The notes beneath the pieces are model-generated. The model was given only the letters and a program-made list of their open reading frames with translations, did no database searches and was not told the origin of the DNA. The position numbers and the translations under genes are program-made. Of a stretch of DNA of 35,955 bases, positions 3,192 to 31,238 are shown in pieces; the first letter of the stretch is position 1; every line of letters begins with the position of its first letter. Source of the stretch: Ruminococcus sp. (GTDB taxonomy: Bacteria > Bacillota > Clostridia > Oscillospirales > Ruminococcaceae). The stretch spans positions 1 to 35,955 of the forward strand of contig JAISHJ010000049.1 in NCBI GenBank assembly GCA_031262625.1, written 5' to 3'.

Positions 3192-4229
3192 TTGAGGATA
3201 GATGACCATAACGCGACGGTTGCCAAGCTTCGTGCTATGTACGGAAAACGCCTGAAAATTGCGGATTATAACGAACTTGCCGCCCAGCGCCGTATTTCTG
3301 ACATTGCCGAGATGCTCCGCAATAAGCAAAATTACTCCGACACCCTCTCCGGCATCAACTCAAACACTATTCACCGCGGGATGCTTGAAGATCTGCTCCG
3401 CAGAAGCGTTTACGACAACTACAGCAAGATAACCGGTTTTGAACATATAGCAGGCGAAATGTTCTTCGATTATCGTCAGGTTCAGGCGGAAGTGCGCGAG
3501 ATATTAAACGCTATTCATTATATTAACGCGAAATCGGAACAGCATATCGAAAAGATGCCGATGTATCTTGATAAGCTGACACGGTTTTCGCAGATTGAAA
3601 TGGCGAAAGCCCGCACAAAGGATGACCTTTTGAAGGTTATTGCGAAGACGCCTTACCACGAAATAATCGAAAAAATTCCGCTGCGGAAAAGCGGAAAAAT
3701 GGATTATAATCCTATAGAAAAGGCTCTCCGAAGCTATCAATACGAACATATTTTAAGTAACGATTATTTTCAGACGGAGGAGTCCCGTCCGCTTTATAAT
3801 CTTATTACGATAGATATTGAGCTTATCAATATAATTAATGCATATCGCATGACTGAATATTTTGAGTACACTCCCGAAAAGATACGCGATAATATGCTTC
3901 CTTTCCCCGGGAAACTCAACTATGCTATACGCAACGACCTCTTGAATGCTCCCGACGGAAAAGAATTTATCGCGCGTTTTTCCCACAGCTATTATGGGCG
4001 GGTCATGACTGCAAGAGGAATTGAAATTAACGGCGACCTTGAAATTGAAGCGCAGAAACTCCGTTACCAATACGCCAGACACGCTCTCCACACTTCAACT
4101 TCACCGATGCTTTCGGTATACGCTTATATGTTTCTTTTTGAAACGGAAGTTAATAATATCACGACAATTATTGAGGGCATAAGGTATGGTTTAGCGGAAA
4201 AAGAACTCTTTGAAATGATAGTAATTTAA
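3192..4229 (+). CDS. ntpC: V/A-type ATP synthase subunit C
   Basis: 345 aa; subunit C/d-like sequence and operon position; TTG start with GAGGGAGGG upstream. Confidence 0.85.
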   Translation: MRIDDHNATVAKLRAMYGKRLKIADYNELAAQRRISDIAEMLRNKQNYSDTLSGINSNTIHRGMLEDLLRRSVYDNYSKITGFEHIAGEMFFDYRQVQAEVREILNAIHYINAKSEQHIEKMPMYLDKLTRFSQIEMAKARTKDDLLKVIAKTPYHEIIEKIPLRKSGKMDYNPIEKALRSYQYEHILSNDYFQTEESRPLYNLITIDIELINIINAYRMTEYFEYTPEKIRDNMLPFPGKLNYAIRNDLLNAPDGKEFIARFSHSYYGRVMTARGIEINGDLEIEAQKLRYQYARHALHTSTSPMLSVYAYMFLFETEVNNITTIIEGIRYGLAEKELFEMIVI

Positions 4230-4247
4230 TAAAAAAGGGGGGACATC

Positions 4248-6200
4248 ATGGCATCAATAGAAAGAATGACTCTTGTTAATATCGCCGGAATGACGAAAGA
4301 CCTTGACATGACACTTATGAAGCTTTCGGAATGCGGCTGCTTTCATATTGAATCGGCAACAGGGCTTGCGGATAAAAAGCGCGGCTTTAATGTTGATAAG
4401 GAGATAAACCCCTATATCGCGCCGCTTAAGACGCTTCAGGAAATCTCCGCAAGGTATGGCGTTAACTACGAGTTTGTTGATTATTCCGATGTTGACGGAA
4501 AAAGCGTTGACGCGATAAATCACTACCTTAAAGACACTCTTGAAAAGCTTGAAAAATTCGCGGAGAAGAAAAAAGATCTTAACGAATCTCTTTCCGTACA
4601 TGAACAGGCGCTTTTCCAGATAGAGCATCTTTCGGGCATGAGCGTTGATTTCCAGAGACTTTTCCACTGTGAACACATAAAGGTTCGTTTCGGGCGAATT
4701 CCTGTTGACAGCTACGCGAAACTGCCGTACTATAACGAGAAGGTTTTCTATTTCACCTACTTCTCGAAGGAAAAAGAGTTCTATTGGGGTGTATATTTTG
4801 TCCCGGTAAACTATTCGGCGGAAGTTGATGAAATTTTCGACAGTTTATATTTCGAGCGTATGCATATCCCTGATTTTGTCGAGGGGAAGGGCGTTGATGC
4901 ACTCGATGCGATGAACAAAGCAATTTCGGACGACAAAGCCGGGATTGAAGACTGCGAAGATAATATTGCGGAGATTTTAGCGACAGAAAGGAACAGTCTT
5001 AACAAAATTTATTCGCGTATACTCACTCAGCATGACCAGTTTGAATTGCGGAGCAAAGCCGCAATTGTTAACGCAAAATTCTACATTGTCGGATTCATTC
5101 CTTCCTCCTTTAACGATGAATTCCAGCGAATCTTTGAGCCGATAACAAGCGTTTCGATAGTCATGCAGCCTGCGGAGGAAAACGGAAAACTAAAGCCGCC
5201 GATTAAGCTTAATAACAACAAATTCTCCGAACCGTTCGGTATGTTTGTCGAGATGTACGGACTGCCGTCGTATAACGGCTTCAACCCGACTAATCTTGTC
5301 GCGATTACCTACACGCTTCTTTTCGGAATGATGTTCGGTGATATGGGGCACGGCTTCTGTGTGGCACTCCTCGGGTTCATTCTCTGGCACAGAAAAAAGA
5401 TGGCGCTCGGCAGGATTATGGAGCGTATCGGCTGTTCAAGTATGATTTTCGGATTTTTATTCGGAAGCATATTCGGATTTGAAGACCTTCCCGTATTTAA
5501 CCACATATTTACTGCGATCGGTCTCGGCGGTATACTGCCGTTCCACACCGCAAATACCGCAAATGCACTGCCGATAATCATCGGCGCGATCGCCCTCGGT
5601 ATTATAATAATGATTATATCAATCGTTATCAATATCGTCACCGGCGTTAGGGCGAAGGAATACGAAGAAGCACTCTTTGCAAACAACGGCATCGCGGGAC
5701 TCATATTCTTTGTAGGAATACTCGTTATGATGCTTTCGATGGTGTTAAAATGGGGTATCGTTACGCCGCTTTATGTTGTTCTTGTGGTAGTGCTGCCGCT
5801 ACTTGTTATGTTCATGCGCGACCCGCTGAGTAAGTGGGTAAGGCGTGAACCATATAAATTCGGAAGTATGGGTGAATTTATTGCGACAAACTTCTTTGAA
5901 CTGTTTGAATTCTTGCTCGGATACGCTTCAAATGCACTTTCCTTTGTAAGAATCGGCGGATTCGTCCTCTCCCACGCGATAATGATGTCTGTTGTAATGC
6001 TCCTTGCCGGAGTAGAAAGCGGACACCCTAACATCTTCATAATTATCTTCGGTAACCTCTTTGTTATGGGGCTTGAAGGATTTATAGTAGCAATTCAGGT
6101 TTTAAGACTTGAGTTTTACGAAATCTTCTCACGCTTTTATAAAGGAAACGGTAAGGCATTTACCCCGGTTAAACTCCAAACCCACGTTATTGAAAAGTAA
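4248..6200 (+). CDS. ntpI: V/A-type ATP synthase subunit I (a-subunit)
   Basis: 650 aa; soluble N-terminal half then multi-TM C-terminal half with LLFGMMFGDMGHG and LLGYASNALSFVRIGGFVLSHA. Confidence 0.97.
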   Translation: MASIERMTLVNIAGMTKDLDMTLMKLSECGCFHIESATGLADKKRGFNVDKEINPYIAPLKTLQEISARYGVNYEFVDYSDVDGKSVDAINHYLKDTLEKLEKFAEKKKDLNESLSVHEQALFQIEHLSGMSVDFQRLFHCEHIKVRFGRIPVDSYAKLPYYNEKVFYFTYFSKEKEFYWGVYFVPVNYSAEVDEIFDSLYFERMHIPDFVEGKGVDALDAMNKAISDDKAGIEDCEDNIAEILATERNSLNKIYSRILTQHDQFELRSKAAIVNAKFYIVGFIPSSFNDEFQRIFEPITSVSIVMQPAEENGKLKPPIKLNNNKFSEPFGMFVEMYGLPSYNGFNPTNLVAITYTLLFGMMFGDMGHGFCVALLGFILWHRKKMALGRIMERIGCSSMIFGFLFGSIFGFEDLPVFNHIFTAIGLGGILPFHTANTANALPIIIGAIALGIIIMIISIVINIVTGVRAKEYEEALFANNGIAGLIFFVGILVMMLSMVLKWGIVTPLYVVLVVVLPLLVMFMRDPLSKWVRREPYKFGSMGEFIATNFFELFEFLLGYASNALSFVRIGGFVLSHAIMMSVVMLLAGVESGHPNIFIIIFGNLFVMGLEGFIVAIQVLRLEFYEIFSRFYKGNGKAFTPVKLQTHVIEK

Positions 6201-6233
6201 AATTCCATCATATTTAAGTGAGGTAATAAAAAC

Positions 6234-6680
6234 ATGAGCATAGCATTAATTTTCATACTCCCGTTAATAGTTACGGCACTCCTTTTCGTTCCCTTTATGG
6301 TAAAATCAAAGAAAGGTCTTAACGTTAAGAAGGCTATCGTCGCTAACCTCTGCGCATTCTTTGCGGTGCTTTCCCTCTGTATAGCTGTTCCTATGGGCGT
6401 TTCGGCGGCAGATGAAGAAACAGCTTCTGCGACAAGCACTTCGGAAGCGGCTGACTCCGGGCTTTCAGATAAGGCGTTTGCTTATATCGGCGCGGCACTT
6501 GCGGTAGGACTTGGTTCTCTCGGATGCGGTATCGCGGTTGGTAAGGCTGCTCCTGCGGCAATCGGCGCGGTTTCGGAAGATCCTTCTTCCTTCTCAAAAT
6601 CTCTCATATTCGTAGCTCTCGGCGAAGGTGTTGCTATCTATGGTCTCCTTATCGCCTTCCTTCTCATATTCCAATCATAA
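6234..6680 (+). CDS. ntpK: V/A-type ATP synthase subunit K (c-ring) with N-terminal hydrophobic extension
   Basis: 148 aa; C-terminal hairpin AYIGAALAVGLGSLGCGIAVGKAAPAAIGAVSEDP...FVALGEGVAIYGLLIAF. Confidence 0.95.
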   Translation: MSIALIFILPLIVTALLFVPFMVKSKKGLNVKKAIVANLCAFFAVLSLCIAVPMGVSAADEETASATSTSEAADSGLSDKAFAYIGAALAVGLGSLGCGIAVGKAAPAAIGAVSEDPSSFSKSLIFVALGEGVAIYGLLIAFLLIFQS

Positions 6681-6692
6681 CGGAAGATAACT

Positions 6693-7001
6693 ATGTATTT
6701 TTTTCTGATTTCCGATAATGTAGATACACAAGTCGGTATGAGACTTGCAGGGGTTGACGGAATAGTAGTCCACGAAAAGAAGGAATTCAAGGAAGCCTTA
6801 CTTAACGCAATGGAAGTTAAGGAAACGGCAGTAATACTCATAACAAGCAGACTTTTTAACCTTGCCCCCGATTTCGTGTTTGACTTAAAACTAAACCGCC
6901 GCAGTCCTTTAATCGTGGAGATTCCCGACCGTCACGCGTCGGTTAATGTCACCGATAATATCGCGAAATATATCGAGTCGGCAATCGGCTTGAAGCTTTA
7001 A
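6693..7001 (+). CDS. V/A-type ATP synthase subunit F
   Basis: 102 aa; MYFFLISDNVDTQVGMRLAGVDGIVVHEKKEF...VILITSRLF, with operon context. Confidence 0.9.
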   Translation: MYFFLISDNVDTQVGMRLAGVDGIVVHEKKEFKEALLNAMEVKETAVILITSRLFNLAPDFVFDLKLNRRSPLIVEIPDRHASVNVTDNIAKYIESAIGLKL

Positions 7002-7027
7002 GTTTTATACATTGAGGTGTTTTATTC

Positions 7028-7609
7028 ATGGCAGATGATGCTAAGTTATCGCGGTTTATAGATGCGGTAAACGAAGACATAGATTCAAAAGTCGCGGTAA
7101 TAATAAGCGGCGCGGAGAATGAGCGGGACGGTATACTGTCCGATGCTAAATCTCAAGCCGATGAACAGGCGGCAAAGCTTTATGACACAAATATGAAACG
7201 CATTACACAGAAGATTACAAGGCAGGTATCGCAGAACGAATTTACTGCGAAAAAAGAGATTCTAAAGCACCGCGAGGAACTTACAGAAAAGCTTTTTAAT
7301 GAAGTTACCGATAAGCTTTTAGAACTTCATAACTCCGCCGGCTATGTGGATATACTTTCAAAACGGCTTGCGATGCTTAACGTTGACAGCGGTTCTGAAA
7401 TTTCTGTTTCGCCGGATGATATGAAGTATGCAGATACGCTTAAAAAGTCACTCAAAACAGACAACGTAACCTTTACACCCGACAGCGCAATTCGTTACGG
7501 CGGATTTTCGATTTACAATAAACATAACGGAACAATAATAGATAAAACCTTTGACGGCGCGATTGACGAACAGCGCGTCCTGTTTACCAACCGTAACATC
7601 TTCGCATAA
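7028..7609 (+). CDS. V/A-type ATP synthase subunit E
   Basis: 193 aa helical stalk protein, DEQRVLFTNRNIFA C-terminus, upstream of subunit A. Confidence 0.88.
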   Translation: MADDAKLSRFIDAVNEDIDSKVAVIISGAENERDGILSDAKSQADEQAAKLYDTNMKRITQKITRQVSQNEFTAKKEILKHREELTEKLFNEVTDKLLELHNSAGYVDILSKRLAMLNVDSGSEISVSPDDMKYADTLKKSLKTDNVTFTPDSAIRYGGFSIYNKHNGTIIDKTFDGAIDEQRVLFTNRNIFA

Positions 7610-7637
7610 AAATAGGTAAAACAGAGGGAGAAATACA

Positions 7638-9389
7638 TTGAATACAGTATTTGGTATTAACGGACCGGTTGTAAAGGTTCGTGATACGAAGTCGTTCTCT
7701 ATGATGGAGATGGTTTTCGTCGGAAAAAAGCGGCTTATCGGCGAGATAATCGGGATTAATTCCGATGAGACGACTATTCAGGTTTACGAATCGACTACCG
7801 GGCTTATGCCGGGCGAACCTGTTGTAGGTTCGGGTGCGCCTATGTCCGCGACACTCGGTCCCGGTATCCTTGCTAATATTTTCGACGGAATCGAGCGCCC
7901 CTTAAAATCGCTCGAAGCCGTTACCGGTGCGTTTATTGCCGAGGGCGCGGCGGTTACTACCCTTGATGAAGATAAAAAATGGGAAGTAACGCTTAACGTC
8001 AAGCCCGGCGACACAGTTTCCGGCGGGCAGATTTTCGCAACCTGTCCCGAAACTCCTGTTATAATGCACAAATGCTTAGTTCCTCCCGATATATCAGGTG
8101 AGGTTACTTGGGTTGCTTCCGACGGCGAATACACGATAGTTGACAAAATCGCTGTTGTTAAGGCTTCCGACGGCACTGAGCATGAACTTAAGCTTGCGCA
8201 AAAATGGCCTATTAAAATTCCCCGCCCGATTACTAAACGTGTAGCGGTTTCACGCCCGCTTATTACAGGGCAGAGGATCATTGATACAATTATTCCCATT
8301 TCAAAGGGCGGCACGGCGGCAATTCCGGGCGGCTTCGGTACAGGGAAAACTATGACCCAGCATCAGCTTGCGAAATGGTGCGATGCGGATATTATCGTCT
8401 ATATCGGCTGCGGCGAGCGCGGAAATGAGATGACACAGGTTCTCGAAGAATTCACGGGGCTTGTTGACCCGAAGACGGGCAATGCTCTCACCGACAGAAC
8501 CGTGCTTATCGCTAACACTTCTAATATGCCGGTTGCAGCGAGAGAAGCTTCCATTTACACCGGAATTACTCTTGCTGAATACTATCGCGACATGGGTTAC
8601 CATATCGCTATTATGGCGGATTCAACCTCACGCTGGGCGGAAGCGCTCCGCGAAATAAGCGGCAGACTTGAAGAAATGCCGGCAGAGGAAGGTTTCCCGG
8701 CGTATCTTCCGTCAAGGCTTTCGGAATTTTACGAGCGTGCAGGCTATGTTGAAACGCTTTCCGACAGCGAAGGTTCCGTTACAATTATCGGTGCAGTTTC
8801 ACCGCAGGGCGCAGACTTCTCCGAGCCTGTTACGCAGAATACAAAACGTTTTGTGCGTTGCTTTTGGGCGCTTGACAAAAACTTAGCGTATGCGCGCCAT
8901 TACCCCGCGATTAACTGGAACGACAGTTACTCCGAATATGCGGACGAACTTGCGGAGTATTACCACGATAATGTTAACATAGATTTCATGAGTTATCGCC
9001 AGCAGATTGCCAATATCCTCCATGAGGAGAGCAAACTCATGGAGATTGTAAAGCTTATCGGGTCGGATGTTTTACCGGAAGACCAAAAGCTTGTTATCGA
9101 AATTGCTTCGGTTGTCAGAATAGGATTTTTACAGCAAAACGCCTACCATAAAGATGACACCTATGTTCCGCTTGATAAGCAGTTTAAGATGATGAACAGC
9201 ATACTTCACCTTTACGACAAGTGTAAAGCAGCAGTGGCGAGCGGAATTCCCGTTTCTGAAATTTCAAAAACAGGTGTTTTCGACAAGGTTACTAAGATGA
9301 AATATGACATACCGAACGACAAACCGCAGTTCTTCAACGTGCTTGATACTGAAGTTGAAGAAACGCTTAAAAACATTAAAAAGGAGTAG
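7638..9389 (+). CDS. ntpA: V/A-type ATP synthase catalytic subunit A
   Basis: 583 aa; P-loop GGFGTGKTMTQHQLAKWCDADIIVYIGCGERGNEMTQVL; TTG start with GAGGGAG upstream. Confidence 0.98.
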   Translation: MNTVFGINGPVVKVRDTKSFSMMEMVFVGKKRLIGEIIGINSDETTIQVYESTTGLMPGEPVVGSGAPMSATLGPGILANIFDGIERPLKSLEAVTGAFIAEGAAVTTLDEDKKWEVTLNVKPGDTVSGGQIFATCPETPVIMHKCLVPPDISGEVTWVASDGEYTIVDKIAVVKASDGTEHELKLAQKWPIKIPRPITKRVAVSRPLITGQRIIDTIIPISKGGTAAIPGGFGTGKTMTQHQLAKWCDADIIVYIGCGERGNEMTQVLEEFTGLVDPKTGNALTDRTVLIANTSNMPVAAREASIYTGITLAEYYRDMGYHIAIMADSTSRWAEALREISGRLEEMPAEEGFPAYLPSRLSEFYERAGYVETLSDSEGSVTIIGAVSPQGADFSEPVTQNTKRFVRCFWALDKNLAYARHYPAINWNDSYSEYADELAEYYHDNVNIDFMSYRQQIANILHEESKLMEIVKLIGSDVLPEDQKLVIEIASVVRIGFLQQNAYHKDDTYVPLDKQFKMMNSILHLYDKCKAAVASGIPVSEISKTGVFDKVTKMKYDIPNDKPQFFNVLDTEVEETLKNIKKE

Positions 9390-9398
9390 GCGGATATT

Positions 9399-10805
9399 AT
9401 GGCACTTCAATATGTCGGCTTAAAAGAGATTAACGGTCCGCTTATCGTCCTTGATAACGTAAGCAATGCGTTTTATGACGAGATGGTGGAAATAAAGCTT
9501 GAAAACGGCACTTCCCGTATGGGACGTGTGGTTGAGATACAGGGGCGGCGCGTAGTTCTCCAAGTATTTGAGGGAACGAAAGGCTTGTCACTCGAAAATA
9601 CACGTACAAGATTTATCGGTAAACCGATGGAGATGCCGCTGTCTACAGACCTTTTGGGGCGTGTATTCTCCGGCGCAGGAAGACCGATTGACGGACTGGG
9701 CGACATCTTCGCGGAAAGTGCAGCAGACGTTAACGGAAAGCCTCTAAACCCTGTTTCCCGCGAATACCCCCGAAACTATATACGTACCGGAATTTCCGCG
9801 ATAGATGCGCTTATGACTTTAATCCGCGGGCAGAAACTCCCGATATTTTCGGGCTCGGGTCTGTCGCACAATAAGCTTGCGGTACAGATTGTACGTCAGG
9901 CGCAGATTACAGACGACAGCGGCGTTACAAGCGACGACTTCGCGATAGTTTTCGCTGCAATGGGCGTAAAAAATGACGTTGCGGAATATTTCCGCAAATC
10001 CTTCGAGGAAACAGGCGTACTCTCAAGAGTAGTTATGTTTTTAAACCTCTCTAACGACCCGATTATCGAACGTATTTTAACTCCGCGCTGTGCTTTGGCA
10101 GTTGCGGAATATCTTGCATTTGAAAAGGATATGCATATCCTTGTTATCCTCACAGATATGACTTCTTACGCCGAAGCAGTCCGCGAATTTTCAAGTTCTA
10201 AGGGCGAAATTCCCGGGCGTAAAGGCTTCCCGGGTTACCTTTATTCCGACCTTGCTTCGATTTACGAAAGAGCCGGTATTATAAATACCGCGAAAGGTTC
10301 TGTTACACAAATTCCGATACTGACAATGCCTAACGACGATATTACTCACCCTGTTCCTGACTTAACCGGATATATCACAGAGGGGCAGATTGTTCTTGAC
10401 AGAACCCTCGACCAGACGGGAGTTTATCCTTCAATCAGTGTCCTGCCGTCACTTTCAAGGCTTATGAAGGACGGTATCGGCGAAGGTTATACCAGAGATG
10501 ACCACGCCGACGTTTCTAACCAGCTTTTCGCTGCATACGCGAAGGTACAGGATGCGAGAGCGCTTGCTCAGGTTATCGGCGAAGATGAACTCTCCGACAC
10601 AGATAAAGCTTATATGAAGTTCGGTAAGCTTTTTGAAAAATATTTCGTTGCCCAACGCCCGGACGAAAACCGCACTATTGAAGAAACTCTCGACCTTGGT
10701 TGGGCTCTCCTCTCAACCATGCCGCGCAGTCTCCTTGATCGAGTAAGCGATGATGTTCTTGACAAACATTATGACCCCGAAAAAGCGGAGAATTACAAGG
10801 TTTAG
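9399..10805 (+). CDS. ntpB: V/A-type ATP synthase subunit B
   Basis: 468 aa; [66 protein letters not shown]. Confidence 0.98.
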
Positions 10806-10806
10806 C

Positions 10807-10884
10807 GTGGGTAGACGACGACTGTACAAAGATAAGAAACGGTTACGGAGACTGTACAGAGAAGGCACAGGGATGTCGGATTAA
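10807..10884 (+). CDS. candidate micro-ORF, 25 codons, Arg-rich (MGRRRLYKDKKRLRRLYREGTGMSD)
   Basis: GTG start 1 nt after the ntpB stop (TAGcGTG), AAGG 6-7 nt upstream, ends TAA at 10882-10884; not in the ORF track because of length. Confidence 0.35.
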   Translation: MGRRRLYKDKKRLRRLYREGTGMSD

Positions 10885-10919
10885 CGCTAATTATTGCAAA
10901 TTTGAAAGGGTGAGGATTT

Positions 10920-11573
10920 ATGGCTGATCAAGTTTTCCCGACCAAAGGCAACCTCTTAAATACACAGAAATCGCTGAGCCTTGCAACGCTCGGTTATGAA
11001 CTGCTTGATAAAAAGCGCAATATCCTCATCCGCGAATTAATGTCGATGGTTGACAAGGCAAAACAGCTTCGCGGAACTATCGACAGCACCTATATTCAAG
11101 CTTATCAAGCACTCCAGATGGCGAATATTTCACGCGGTATTATCGGAAATATCGCCGACAGTATGCCGATTGAAGACAGTCTCACTGTGACATACAGAAG
11201 CGTTATGGGATGTGAACTTCCGCAGGTTTCTATAAACGAAAAAAAGCCGCAGATTTTATACGGCTTCTTAAACACCGATGTCCATATTGACAAAGCTTAT
11301 ATCTGCTTTGAAAAAGTTAAGGTTATGACTGCCGCGCTTGCGGAAGTTGATAACGGTATCTACCGCCTTACAAACTCAATCAGAAAGACACAAACTCGCG
11401 CAAACGCACTCCAAAACATCGTTATTCCGCGTTATAAAAAGACTGTGAAATTTATATCCGAATCTCTTGAAGAAAAAGAGCGTGAGGATTTTTCACGTAT
11501 GAAGGTTATTAAAACGCAGAAGGAACGGCGTAAAAAACGCTATAAAATTAAATCAACCGAAAATGCGGCGTAA
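10920..11573 (+). CDS. ntpD: V/A-type ATP synthase subunit D
   Basis: 217 aa; FPTKGNLLNTQKSLSLATLGYELLDKKRNILIREL and ALQNIVIPRYKKTVKFISESLEEKEREDFSRMKVIK. Confidence 0.97.
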   Translation: MADQVFPTKGNLLNTQKSLSLATLGYELLDKKRNILIRELMSMVDKAKQLRGTIDSTYIQAYQALQMANISRGIIGNIADSMPIEDSLTVTYRSVMGCELPQVSINEKKPQILYGFLNTDVHIDKAYICFEKVKVMTAALAEVDNGIYRLTNSIRKTQTRANALQNIVIPRYKKTVKFISESLEEKEREDFSRMKVIKTQKERRKKRYKIKSTENAA

Positions 11574-25388: not shown

Positions 25389-26645
25389 TTAGCCGACATT
25401 TAGAGAAAACGCCTTGAAACCGCTGTCACATTCGCACAGCGCATTGTTTAATTCACGCTTGCATTCGTCATTGCTGTTACAGAAATCTTCTGACGAGTGT
25501 TTCTTAAACATCTTCTTTATGAGCGCTAAAAATTCCGATTCGCCCCAATCTGTTATGTCGCCGAAAAGCATAATTGCAGTGGATAATATTACTCGTTTTT
25601 CGTACTTAATTATATTTTTTATCATAAGCACAAAATCATGATTAGCGGAAGCAATTTCGACAGCAGCAGCAAGAATAATCGCTATTGCTTCCGCTTGTTT
25701 TGTGCGGTTTTTTCTCGTTTCATCCATCATCAGCGTAACAATAGTATCACACAAAAATTTCTTTTTATCCGCATATTCCGGTGCAGTTAAAAGGTAGGTT
25801 ACGAGTGCGTTTATTGTTTCCGAAATGTATGAAAATTCTGCTTGTGTCATTATTTCATTATCGGAATTTCGCAGACTGTCGGGGAGGTGAAACCACGGCA
25901 GCGGAGAGCCGAAAAGGTAGTCGGGGAGTATCGTTTCGCCCCTTGCTCCCGAAAAATAAAGAGGAGGTCTGAGAGCATAAAATCCGAGGCAATTTACAAA
26001 ATCGCGGCGTTCCGCAAAACCAATAATTTTCTCCGCACGTTCCTTAATATTTTCCGAATATTTATCTGTGAATTCCGCCGAAAAACCCTGTCCGTCAAGT
26101 GAAAAACATTCATTAACGGTATAATTTCCGTAAAGTTTGCAAGTTAAAAAGCAATACATAGACTTATTTCCGCCGCCGGAATGACCTGCTGTGACGAGAT
26201 AATCAGGTGCGAATTTTATAAAAGTCCTGTTTACAAAAGCGGCACAATCAAGGAGTTCTTTGGTCTCTGTTTGATACATCCTCGCCCCATTATCAGCCCA
26301 TTCTGCATCACCGTGAGTACCGCGAAAAACTACTGCGATTTTTTTCCCGTTTCCGAAAACTAATATGCGGTTTCCGGGCGTTTTATCGTCTTTTTGATAG
26401 TTGAGCGGCACGTCATAAAAATCAAGAAGCTTTAGCGAGGATAAATTTTTATTCGTTATTATATCGCGATAAACTATAGAAAAATCAATGTTTGATACAT
26501 ATTCATCGGGAGTTTCCTTAGTCGTTTGCCGGAGCATATCACCGGCAATATCGCCAAGCGAAAGCTCTGCACTGTAATTTAAAAGATCGTCGGAATAGAC
26601 AAGGCAGCAAAGCCTTTCAAGCTCAGGCGGTGATAAAAAATCCAT
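25389..26645 (-). CDS. Mbeg1-like / DUF2974 alpha/beta hydrolase (lipase-like)
   Basis: 418 aa; VVFRGTHGDAEWADNG and nucleophile elbow TAGHSGGGNKSMYCFL, DGQGFSAEF; SD GGAGG before ATG 26645. Confidence 0.8.
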   Translation of the reverse strand: MDFLSPPELERLCCLVYSDDLLNYSAELSLGDIAGDMLRQTTKETPDEYVSNIDFSIVYRDIITNKNLSSLKLLDFYDVPLNYQKDDKTPGNRILVFGNGKKIAVVFRGTHGDAEWADNGARMYQTETKELLDCAAFVNRTFIKFAPDYLVTAGHSGGGNKSMYCFLTCKLYGNYTVNECFSLDGQGFSAEFTDKYSENIKERAEKIIGFAERRDFVNCLGFYALRPPLYFSGARGETILPDYLFGSPLPWFHLPDSLRNSDNEIMTQAEFSYISETINALVTYLLTAPEYADKKKFLCDTIVTLMMDETRKNRTKQAEAIAIILAAAVEIASANHDFVLMIKNIIKYEKRVILSTAIMLFGDITDWGESEFLALIKKMFKKHSSEDFCNSNDECKRELNNALCECDSGFKAFSLNVG

Positions 26646-26653
26646 AATTACCT

Positions 26654-26686
26654 CCGTATATCAAGTATTGTTTACATGATATACGG
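26654..26686. promoter_or_regulatory. 10-bp perfect inverted repeat upstream of DUF2974 gene
   Basis: CCGTATATCA (26654-26663) and TGATATACGG (26677-26686), 13-nt spacer; the 26654-side arm overlaps the hydrolase SD on the - strand. Confidence 0.6.
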
Positions 26687-26714
26687 AATGGGAAATATGG
26701 TTACTTAAACGACA

Positions 26715-29420
26715 TTAACTGAACGCTATTTTGCATACTTCAATTTCGTGTGCGCGGAGTTCATGCAAATCAAATTCGGGCAAATCACGCTCATTTTGAA
26801 TCGCCTTTTTATCATTTCCGAAAAAGTCAAGCTGACCTGATGATATGTTATCTCGTTCTTTACCGGCACGTTCCATGGTAATCGGAAGATTGCGAAGCAT
26901 TGTTCGGCGAGTTTGTCCGCAAAAATCAAAAGCCCCCGAATAAATCAAATTTTCAATAGCATTTCGCGGAACTGTGTAGTAGTCAAACCGCGAACAAAAA
27001 TCTTCAAGTGAGTAAAACCGTTCGCGCTCACGTTCTTCAAGCACTGCTTCAATCGGGTGAGTACCCATTCCCTTTATCAGTGACAGCCCGAAGCGAATTT
27101 TATTATTACTTTCTGCCGTGAATTTTCTGCCGGAATTATTTATGTCCGGAGGGAGAAATTTCATCCCCATTTTATATGCTTCATTGATGTATTTTTGGTC
27201 GAAAGAATTCGATAAAAGCGCCGATAAATATTCAGCAGGGAAGTGACATTTAAGGTAAGCGGTTCGATACGCAATATATGCGTAGGCGACAGCGTGAGAT
27301 TTGTTAAAAGCGTAGGATGAAAACTTTTCTATTTCGTCGTAAATGCTTTCTGAGACGTTTCGCGGTACGTTATTTTTGTCTGCACCGTTTAAGAATTCGA
27401 TCCGCTCACTTTCGATAATACCGGACTTTTTTTTCGCCATTGCGCGCCGTAAAATATCTGCTCTTCCGAGAGAAAATCCCGCTAATTTTTGAACGATCTG
27501 CATAACCTGTTCTTGATAAACTATTATGCCGTATGTTTCATCTAAAATGCCGTCGATAAGCGGGTGTAAAAACCGTCTTCTTATTTTTCCGTGACGTGCA
27601 TCAATGAAATTCTTGATACTGTCCATCGGTCCCGGTCGAAAAAGAGCGTTAACAGCAATAAGGTCGCCGATGTTTTCGGGAGCAAGCCGCATGAGAACGC
27701 TCATAAATCCTTCAGATTCAAACTGGAACACACCCAGAGTCTGCCCGGAAGCAATCATCTGATATGTTTTTTTATCATCAAGCGGTATAGAATTTTCGTT
27801 GAAATTCTTTATTTGTTTTAAGCAGTCGTCAATTATCGTGAGATGCTTAAGCCCCAAAACGTCCATCTTTACAAGACCTACGTCTTCAAGATAGCCCATA
27901 GTAAACTGGGTCATTTTTATTCCGCTCGTATTGATTACCGGTGCGTAATCGGTTATCGGCGCATCTGCGAGTACTATTCCCGAAGCGTGAGTAGAGATAT
28001 TTTTCGGAAATCCTTCGATTAATTGCGCAGCATCAAGAAATTTTTTTATCTGATTATCCTGTTCAATCCATTCGCCGTTTTCATTTTTTAAGGCTTTAAG
28101 AGTTTCGTTAATCGGAATTTGTTTTGCAATATAATCAGCTGTTTTTGCGGAGATATGAAGTACTCGTGATGCTTCTCTGACAGCGGATTTGCCCTTAATT
28201 GTCATGAATGTAACTATCCCGGCAACCCGTGTTTCGCCGTATTTTTTTACAGCATATTCGATAATTTCATGACGGCGATCATGCCCGAAATCAACGTCAA
28301 TATCAGGCAGAGTAACCCGTTCCGGATTGAGGAAACGCTCAAACAAAAGCTGATGTTTTATCGGATCAATTCCTGTGATACCGATACAGTAAGCGGTAAA
28401 TGAACCTACTCCCGAACCTCTGCCCAAACCAACGGGAATTCCCATACTGCGAGCGAATTTTACGAAGTCCCAAACTATCAGAAAATAGTCCGCAAAACCC
28501 ATACGTATAATTACTTCAAGTTCATATGAAAGTCGGTCTGTCTGTACCTTTGAAAGGTTTTCGCCGAAGCGTTTTTCCATACCTTTTTTCGCGAGAGCAC
28601 TTAAAAAACCTGCACTTTTCCCTATACTGTCCGGGAAGAAAACCGGCATATGAAATTCACCGAAAGGGATAACATTTTCGTCAATCATTTCTGAAATTTT
28701 CAACGTATTTATAATTGCTTCAGGTACATTTGCGAATAGTTTCGACATTTCATCCGAAGATTTTATATAGTACTCAGAATTTTGAGGAGGAGTGATTTTT
28801 TCGCTTAATGAAGACAGTAAATTTGCGGCTTCATAATCTCCGCAGCGCGCCATCCTAACGTCATTTGAAGCAACAAGAGGAAATTCAGTTTCTTCCGAAA
28901 GCTTCAGATAAAGCGGTAAAATTTCTGTTTCAAACGGAAGATTATGATTCCAAATCTCAATATAAATGTCCTTAAAACATGAGTGTAACCGATAAAGAAA
29001 ACGCTTTGTATCTTTATAAAAACCGTTTGACAAAAGTTCAAATATTTTACCGTTTTGTCCGCCTGTTAAGAGGATTAAACCTTCTGAACTTTGAAATAAT
29101 AAATCTTCGGTAAGAACGTTTGCAGATGCAATTTTCAGCAAATTTTTGTAGCCTTTTTGATTTTTGGCAAGTAAAACAATACCGGCATAATCCGTCAAAA
29201 TACGGTCGCTGTCAGACTTAATTTCAAGCCCTATAATAGGCTTAATTCCCGATGATAAAGCTTCTTTTGCAAACTTAATCGTACCGAACATATAGCCTTT
29301 GTCGGTTAAAGAAACTGCATTCTGACCGAGATTTTTCGCACACGAAATAATGTCCTCCGTGTGTGCGGAGGACTCTAAAAGACTGTAGTCAGATTTAACG
29401 TGAAGATGAACGAAATTCAT
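26715..29420 (-). CDS. dnaE: DNA polymerase III alpha subunit (DnaE), C-terminally short
   Basis: 901 aa; GLGRGSGVGSFTAYCIGI, PDIDVDFGHDRRHEIIEY, VKMDVLGLKHLTIID, FRPGPMDSIKNFIDARHG, YGIIVYQEQVMQIVQ; ends just after clamp-motif-like GQLDFFG. Confidence 0.93.
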   Translation of the reverse strand: MNFVHLHVKSDYSLLESSAHTEDIISCAKNLGQNAVSLTDKGYMFGTIKFAKEALSSGIKPIIGLEIKSDSDRILTDYAGIVLLAKNQKGYKNLLKIASANVLTEDLLFQSSEGLILLTGGQNGKIFELLSNGFYKDTKRFLYRLHSCFKDIYIEIWNHNLPFETEILPLYLKLSEETEFPLVASNDVRMARCGDYEAANLLSSLSEKITPPQNSEYYIKSSDEMSKLFANVPEAIINTLKISEMIDENVIPFGEFHMPVFFPDSIGKSAGFLSALAKKGMEKRFGENLSKVQTDRLSYELEVIIRMGFADYFLIVWDFVKFARSMGIPVGLGRGSGVGSFTAYCIGITGIDPIKHQLLFERFLNPERVTLPDIDVDFGHDRRHEIIEYAVKKYGETRVAGIVTFMTIKGKSAVREASRVLHISAKTADYIAKQIPINETLKALKNENGEWIEQDNQIKKFLDAAQLIEGFPKNISTHASGIVLADAPITDYAPVINTSGIKMTQFTMGYLEDVGLVKMDVLGLKHLTIIDDCLKQIKNFNENSIPLDDKKTYQMIASGQTLGVFQFESEGFMSVLMRLAPENIGDLIAVNALFRPGPMDSIKNFIDARHGKIRRRFLHPLIDGILDETYGIIVYQEQVMQIVQKLAGFSLGRADILRRAMAKKKSGIIESERIEFLNGADKNNVPRNVSESIYDEIEKFSSYAFNKSHAVAYAYIAYRTAYLKCHFPAEYLSALLSNSFDQKYINEAYKMGMKFLPPDINNSGRKFTAESNNKIRFGLSLIKGMGTHPIEAVLEERERERFYSLEDFCSRFDYYTVPRNAIENLIYSGAFDFCGQTRRTMLRNLPITMERAGKERDNISSGQLDFFGNDKKAIQNERDLPEFDLHELRAHEIEVCKIAFS

Positions 29421-30351
29421 TATTTTCTCGCAGATTTTCCGCCATAAGCGAAAGCTTTTTAAGCCTGTGATTTATGCACGAACGTGTTACGGGTTCGCCT
29501 GAAATTTCCGCTAAACTTTCTGATAATTCCTTTAGTGTCATCTGTGGATTTTCGAGCCTTAAATCGGCGGTTTCACGAAGTTTTTGCGGTAATTTTCCGC
29601 GTTTTCCTGCTGCATAAATAAGTTCTATATCGTAAAACTGCTTAAGCCCTGCATCCACGGCACGCTCTATGTTTGCGGCATCGCAGTTTGCAATCCGGTT
29701 CGCCTTATTTCGGACGTTTTTATAAATTTCAGTATTATAATAATCTATTGCGGCATCAGAGAGTCCGATGTAGGTTAAAAAGTCTGAAATTCGCTCTGAA
29801 CCTTTCATATATAAGACGTATTTTCCGCGTCTTGTTATAAGTTTTACACCTTCCTGCCAGAAGCTTTCTTCAAGCAGAATTTTTATGTCCAGTGCAGTTT
29901 TTTCAAACGGCAAAACCATCTCAAGATGATAACTTTTTTCCGGTTCGGTAAGGTTTCCGCATGATAAAAATACTCCTGCGAAAAAGTCTGCTGCTAAAAC
30001 ATTGTCGATAAAATTACGGTCGATATCAAGAGTTTCTCTATCGGTATTATTAAGGTGAAAAGCAGACAAAATGGTACTTCGCGCCGTCTCCGATATTATT
30101 GAAATTTTATAAAGAATAAGGCTGCCTTTTTTTTGTCCGACTGTTTCGGTACATCCTTTTTCATGAGCAAAACTAATGCAAAAATTCTCAAAAAGTTTTG
30201 CAGTATCGGCGTTTGCGGTAGTGAAAACTATCTCTTTTTCACTGCATTTTTTAAGCGTAATGAGTATGCCGTAAAAACATAAAAACTGCGATTCTTTACT
30301 GTATACTTTTCGCTTGCATAAATCAGATTTAATACTCTGTGAAGTTGACAT
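29395..30351 (-). CDS. whiA: WhiA family DNA-binding protein
   Basis: 318 aa; ADFFAGVFLSCGNLTEPEKSYHLEMV, NRIANCDAANIERAV, LKELSESLAEISGEPVTRSCINHRLKKL; overlaps dnaE start by 26 nt. Confidence 0.95.
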   Translation of the reverse strand: MSTSQSIKSDLCKRKVYSKESQFLCFYGILITLKKCSEKEIVFTTANADTAKLFENFCISFAHEKGCTETVGQKKGSLILYKISIISETARSTILSAFHLNNTDRETLDIDRNFIDNVLAADFFAGVFLSCGNLTEPEKSYHLEMVLPFEKTALDIKILLEESFWQEGVKLITRRGKYVLYMKGSERISDFLTYIGLSDAAIDYYNTEIYKNVRNKANRIANCDAANIERAVDAGLKQFYDIELIYAAGKRGKLPQKLRETADLRLENPQMTLKELSESLAEISGEPVTRSCINHRLKKLSLMAENLRENNEFRSSSR

Positions 30352-30353
30352 AA

Positions 30354-31238
30354 TCAGTGCCTGTTAATATCCCTGTGGCTGATTCGAGAGTTATAACCGC
30401 AGTCGGAAATGTATTTTCCGATAAGTTCAGCAAAGGTTATACTGCGGTGCTTCCCGCCGGTACAACCGAAGGCGATTATAAGCTGGCTCTTTCCTTCTTT
30501 TTTATACCGCGGTATTAAAAAATCGAGCATATCGGTAAGTTTTTTCATGAAATCCGTACTGTCAGAGCTGCTCATAACGTAGTTTCGCACTTCTTCCGAA
30601 AGCCCGGTTTTATGCTTTAATTCCGGAATATAAAACGGATTAGGTAAAAATCTTACGTCGAAAACTAAGTCAGCTTCAAGAGAAATTCCGTATTTGAAGC
30701 CGAAAGAAGTAACCTTTATGCTGATTCCGTCAAGAGGATTATTAAGGAGCAAAGCATTGACGGATTCTTTAAGTTCGGCAATTGTAAGCTCGGAAGTATC
30801 AATGTAATAGTCGGCGAGTTCACGAACATCCGAGAGTATAGACCGCTCTTTTTCGACGGCATTTTTAATGCTTTCGTTTGAGTTTGTGTCGAGCGGATGC
30901 CGCCGGCGGGTTTCTTTATAACGCCTGATTAAAACTTCGTTTGAAGCATCAAGAAACATTATTTTTGCGTTAATATTTTGTCCCTTTAGATAGGATAAAC
31001 CTTCACCGAATTCGCGGAAAAGTTCACCGCCGCGTATGTCGGTAACGAGAGCGATTTTTTCCATCGAAGAGCTGCCGCTTTTACCGACATTAACAGCAAT
31101 TTCGGCAAATTTCGGGATAAGCTGCGGAGGAATATTGTCGATGCAGTAATAGCCGTTGTCCTCCAAAACGTTGACAACGCCGGATTTGCCCGAGCCGGAC
31201 ATTCCGGTGATGATGAGAAATTTCGGCATTTGTGACAT
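30354..31238 (-). CDS. rapZ: RNase adapter RapZ / YvcJ P-loop nucleotide-binding protein
   Basis: 294 aa; ITGMSGSGKSGVVNVLEDNGYYCIDNIPP, FLDASNEVLIRRYKETRRRHPL, IAFGCTGGKHRSITFAE. Confidence 0.96.
   Translation of the reverse strand: MSQMPKFLIITGMSGSGKSGVVNVLEDNGYYCIDNIPPQLIPKFAEIAVNVGKSGSSSMEKIALVTDIRGGELFREFGEGLSYLKGQNINAKIMFLDASNEVLIRRYKETRRRHPLDTNSNESIKNAVEKERSILSDVRELADYYIDTSELTIAELKESVNALLLNNPLDGISIKVTSFGFKYGISLEADLVFDVRFLPNPFYIPELKHKTGLSEEVRNYVMSSSDSTDFMKKLTDMLDFLIPRYKKEGKSQLIIAFGCTGGKHRSITFAELIGKYISDCGYNSRISHRDINRH

Follow-up and report, generated by a model that had tools for sequence, protein, structure and literature searches.

Several reduced forms of bacterial replicative polymerases have been described. 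According to the sections of the 2013 survey cited here (PMC3919608), 4% of DnaE3 proteins lack both the OB fold and the C-terminal domain (CTD), including those of all Thermotogae and some Tenericutes; 6% of PolC proteins lack the exonuclease, almost all of them from Clostridia and Negativicutes; and DnaE1 variants truncated after the OB fold occur. A DnaE1 devoid of both the OB fold and the CTD was not found described in those sections. Clostridia usually have three active proofreaders (PMC12926913). In Bacillus subtilis, DnaE extends RNA primers briefly and then hands off to PolC (PMC5627055); it is kept at the fork via the SSB tail and not via tau, as reviewed in the cited sections of PMC3919608, and cells remain viable without its clamp motif (PMC12309361). 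Here we describe a gut-type genus of Clostridia in which DnaE ends before the OB fold, based on a stretch of 35,955 nucleotides (the window) that belongs to a fragmented, 67%-complete metagenome-assembled genome (MAG) of 126 contigs.

Domain structure and locus of the short DnaE

The dnaE gene is located on the minus strand at 26715..29420 and was called as an open reading frame of 901 residues, from ATG to TAA. It comprises a PHP domain with a degenerate metal site (residues 5–159), the palm/thumb and fingers (residues 273–684), the HhH region (residues 752–841), the clamp motif GQLDFFG (residues about 862–868) and a short terminal helix (residues 885–896). Pfam matches were obtained for PHP, DNA_pol3_alpha, the finger domain and HHH_6, with none after residue 841, and the matches to TIGR00594 and PRK05673 end at profile positions 927 of 1022 and 944 of 1146, respectively. 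The palm aspartates in PDIDVDF and VKMDVLGL are intact, and QLDFF is a predicted clamp-binding motif, as judged by its match to the motif. The TAA stop (26715..26717, minus strand) occupies the place where the sequence of relatives goes on with YLSGHPL and then the OB fold and CTD: when the protein is aligned with 25 relatives possessing this region, the end of its terminal KIAFS lies immediately N-terminal of GHPL, and the relatives extend for about 200–240 residues more. Both the OB fold and the tau-binding CTD are thus missing from the protein. An earlier note on this DNA, made from the sequence alone, had read a 901-residue DnaE that keeps its catalytic core and GQLDFFG, stops at the GHPL motif and is separated by 69 bp from the next ORF; the Pfam matches, the alignment and the ORF coordinates bear out each of these points. 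An AlphaFold model of the protein (mean pLDDT 86) fits residues 1–910 of the E. coli alpha subunit (2hnh) with a TM score of 0.84–0.85, and it also fits the T. aquaticus, M. tuberculosis and PolC polymerase structures.

The start of dnaE overlaps by 26 bp with whiA (29395..30351, minus strand), which is preceded by a rapZ-like gene (30354..31238, minus strand) named by eye from its sequence and the gene order; the minus strand of the window also carries a gene identified by eye as rpsB. The order rapZ-whiA-dnaE is common to the window, two other genomes of the genus (G002 and G004) and the full-length dnaE loci of two sister genera (G006 and G025). Behind dnaE lies an Mbeg1-like gene (PF11187) of alpha/beta-hydrolase type, at 25389..26645 on the minus strand, which has its own GGAGG ribosome-binding site. 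This gene stands behind dnaE in each of the four genus members having a dnaE (the window, L112, L113 and L114) and was not found in the seven sister-genus genomes searched; in the sister genus G025 a pfkA-like gene is found behind dnaE, unlike in the window's genus. In G003, the dnaE-Mbeg1 pair occupies a different chromosomal site, away from whiA and with other neighbours. The plus strand of the window carries an ordinary V/A-type ATPase operon (subunits C, I, E, A, B and D; 3192–11573).

Occurrence of the short form

A search with the window DnaE covered 61 relatives. The full-length matches within the genus show 74% (G004), 71% (G002) and 48% (G003) identity, and none of these three carries the full-length dnaE that, according to the earlier note, would count against its reading; their open frames encode 912–918 residues, compared with mostly 1118–1250 in other genera. 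The four proteins of the genus, with pairwise identities of 47–78%, end at one shared alignment column, and their genes terminate with TAA in three cases and TAG in one. No DnaE was found in the fifth genome of the genus (G001, 78% complete), so that the short form is seen in four of five. These five genomes (G000, which contains the window, to G004) are incomplete MAGs (67–93%), and the absences reported for the genus rest on joint absence. G004 has a second dnaE copy, on its contig C5, which runs off the edge of the contig and is uninformative for the C-terminus.

Among the matches listed, the other family members with clear frames have a DnaE of at least 989 residues. A 989-residue frame from G025 was considered as an intermediate short form and rejected, since it is interrupted by two Ns at a scaffold gap and the next ORF carries the OB domain. 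Two short frames from public genomes (L058 and L077) proved to be interrupted frames instead of C-terminal truncations.

The wider sample of the order consisted of 297 genomes, selected with a 95% completeness cut-off and with the window's genome included as centre. The OB/CTD region was detected in 289 of them, and the eight without a match to the C-terminal profile include the window's genome. Following up the other seven confirmed the double loss of OB fold and CTD only in the window's genus. The DnaE of G487 runs into a contig end, and that of G213 is full-length-like but divergent. Two proteins from other families, of 991 (L174, G354) and 1039 residues (L176, G405), appear by eye to have the OB region excised and a CTD-like tail kept. 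The remaining three genomes, G119 (genus g116) and G209 and G268 (both genus g120), gave no DnaE match at all (loci L178, L179 and L180); they are listed at 98–100% completeness, contain a full-length-like PolC and have whiA in the interior of a contig, where it lacks an adjacent dnaE. To our knowledge, published surveys report a DnaE in every bacterium, and these absences could be binning gaps.

PHP sites and loss of the PolC exonuclease

Two features that the earlier note did not mention, the degeneration of the DnaE PHP site and the loss of the PolC exonuclease, were found alongside the truncation. The PHP metal site of DnaE has five of its nine residues replaced in all four genus members, reading HHEKEGGDR in the window protein and HHQNEGGDR, HHQNEGGDC and HHTREGGDC in the other three, where most relatives have HHDHEHCDH and nearly all retain the nine residues. 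Decay of this site is also found without C-terminal loss, in the full-length DnaE L018 (G032; HHESEKTQR), and the PHP site of the G354 DnaE is degenerate as well.

The PolC proteins of all five genus genomes (L118, L119, L120, L121 and L122) lack the entire DnaQ-type exonuclease insert, the two halves of the PHP domain being joined directly; the insert is present in the sister genera G006 and G025. These proteins keep the N-terminal region, the OB region and a clamp-type motif at the C-terminus, and the PHP site is complete (HHDHEHCDH, nine of nine residues) in all sequences inspected, also in the contig-cut copies of G000 and G004. A profile of the DnaQ family (PF00929) gave no match in any of the five genomes, and was positive in the controls, namely B. 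subtilis and, within PolC, the sister genera. Exonuclease-less PolC proteins were found in three further genomes of the order, from other families (G037, G054 and G060). Two of these encode separate RNase_T proteins, of 177 (G037:C9:18320-18784) and 206 residues (G054:C28:6719-7180), which are candidates for proofreaders acting in trans, and in the third, G060, the PHP site of DnaE is intact (L025). Unlike these sampled cases, the window's genus has neither a detectable PF00929 protein nor an intact DnaE PHP site.

With exonucleases sought as PF00929-type enzymes, no recognised site for replicative proofreading other than the PHP domain of PolC is left visible in the genus, one against the three active proofreaders that are the norm in Clostridia (PMC12926913). 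Since PolC has lost its exonuclease but keeps a complete PHP site, replicative proofreading, if any, would depend on that site together with mismatch repair; MutS1 was found in four of the five genomes. The stronger claim, that the genus copies its chromosome without any DnaQ-family exonuclease and with the PolC PHP domain as its sole replicative proofreader, is put forward tentatively, and we lean slightly against it. If it were true, the genus would constitute a natural test of the proofreading ability of the PolC PHP domain. The short DnaE, together with the loss of the PolC exonuclease and of all detectable DnaQ-family proteins, points to a lineage where this activity is accessible to direct testing.

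Proposed role, alternatives and comparison with known systems

The dnaE gene is under purifying selection. For close pairs within the genus, omega is 0.12–0.15 (NG86), with synonymous sites near saturation; in the palm, fingers and HhH of unsaturated pairs it is about 0.08–0.12, lower than in PHP in both pairs broken down by region, and the pairs involving G003 are saturated in NG86. Relative to PolC distances, DnaE distances are about twice as large when they involve the genus as among other lineages, which is as expected for a relaxed or changed constraint. By this sequence evidence the window dnaE appears to be a working gene. We consider it likely that it encodes a functional minimal C-family polymerase, a clostridial DnaE1 turned into a DnaE3-like, non-proofreading primer extender under PolC. 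In the ancestor of the genus, a clostridial DnaE1 working beside PolC would have lost its OB fold and tau-binding CTD, and its PHP nuclease site would have decayed. Reduced to the polymerase core and the internal clamp-binding motif, the enzyme would have given up its contacts to tau and single-stranded DNA; as neither an intact PHP site nor the CTD remains, the prediction is that it neither proofreads nor stays bound to tau. It most probably acts as a short-range polymerase that extends primers before PolC, which would hold the clamp loader and carry out bulk synthesis, takes over. A core with a clamp motif fits the primer-extension role of the B. subtilis enzyme.

An unlikely alternative is that the short DnaE is an accessory, error-prone polymerase for repair or translesion synthesis, similar to DnaE2, and that genome copying is left to PolC alone, with primers extended by some other enzyme. 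Known PolC systems require DnaE for RNA primer extension, which speaks against this. The window DnaE is also the only DnaE found in its genome, the other C-family match being PolC; it retains the clamp motif, and in three of the four species it stays in the rapZ-whiA-dnaE locus. A dead PHP site and a missing CTD are indeed hallmarks of DnaE2 too in the cited sections of PMC3919608, and DnaE evolves fast in the genus, but DnaE2 is almost exclusive to genomes whose sole Pol III catalytic subunit is DnaE1 (PMC12926913).

Replicase genes that are split in two exist in other bacteria, and the OB fold and CTD could in principle come in trans from a gene of their own, the polymerase being split and not reduced. 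A profile built from 16 OB+CTD regions was run against the five genus genomes and sister genomes; it gave no match in G000–G003 and only PolC's own OB stretch in G004, whereas in the sister genomes G006 and G009 it matched with E around 1e-80. No detached OB/CTD was found in any of the five. With completeness values taken as independent probabilities, the chance of missing in every MAG a gene that all five contain would be about 2e-4, a rough figure, MAG losses being non-independent. This explanation is largely refuted and we regard it as very improbable.

Still less credible is the reading that a rearrangement cut the gene, leaving a fragment in decay, with another polymerase doing the work. 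The downstream neighbour of dnaE does differ from that in G025, but decay is contradicted by purifying selection, by the preserved catalytic residues, by the end point shared among four species and by the lack of any other DnaE, and the open frames conserved across species refute it. The earlier note's rearrangement is thus not supported as a recent event; the truncation may have originated in an older rearrangement, in the ancestor of the genus, by which the Mbeg1-like gene came to lie behind dnaE. An assembly chimera at 26640-26740, also raised by the note and conceivable in such a fragmented MAG, has a negligible probability, because the same dnaE-stop-Mbeg1 junction recurs in four independently assembled MAGs and in two genomic contexts, that of G003 being the second; damage or an assembly artefact is not supported. 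What stands of the earlier note is its other proposal, an OB-less Pol III alpha in real use at the whiA-dnaE locus: the form is conserved in four species under purifying selection, and the search for a second dnaE, a polC or a detached C-terminus that the note had called for yielded, in this 67%-complete genome, only PolC.

The reduction of a local clostridial DnaE1 after vertical descent is favoured by three observations taken together: the genus DnaE groups with those of Oscillospiraceae on a long stem and with moderate support (SH-aLRT 83) in a broader tree, the DnaE trees containing no DnaE3 sequences; the order rapZ-whiA-dnaE is kept; and the relative rate of DnaE is about doubled. The best NCBIfam scores are those of PRK05673 and PRK06826. 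The locus order and the Oscillospiraceae grouping make a transferred DnaE3, a clade of Bacilli, Tenericutes and Thermotogae, a disfavoured source. If the proposed reading holds, an enzyme of the versatile DnaE1 lineage is able, in the presence of PolC, to dispense with the OB fold, the tau-binding domain and the PHP nuclease, and so arrive at a DnaE3 form. This bears on a question left open in the cited sections of the 2013 survey (PMC3919608), namely why DnaE1 and DnaE3 differ in versatility despite the same typical architecture.

No description of a DnaE1 lineage that lost the OB fold and CTD together with the PolC exonuclease was found in the papers cited here. Compared with the classes in the cited sections of PMC3919608, the window DnaE resembles the clostridial DnaE1 paired with PolC (see also PMC12926913) in its phylogenetic grouping, rapZ-whiA-dnaE neighbourhood and PolC partner, and differs from it in lacking the OB fold, the CTD and the HHDHEHCDH site. 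With the OB/CTD-less DnaE3 it shares the bare core, the disrupted PHP, the variable C-terminus and the constant presence of PolC; unlike DnaE3, it comes from an Oscillospiraceae-like clostridial lineage (DnaE1 + PolC), retains the clamp motif and accompanies a PolC whose exonuclease is gone, and its reduction looks independent of that of DnaE3. DnaE2, accessory to DnaE1 in genomes without PolC, contrasts with the single DnaE beside PolC seen here. The PolC of the genus is like the exonuclease-less PolC of Clostridia and Negativicutes, with an N-terminal domain, OB, an uninterrupted and intact PHP, polymerase and HhH, and no DnaQ insert. Finally, the E. coli Pol III alpha cores (2hnh and 2hqa) and the 927-residue DnaE chain 5lew have nearly the same end boundary and match the predicted fold (TM 0.83–0.85 over the query); these chains were truncated for structural work, whereas the window DnaE is a natural protein.
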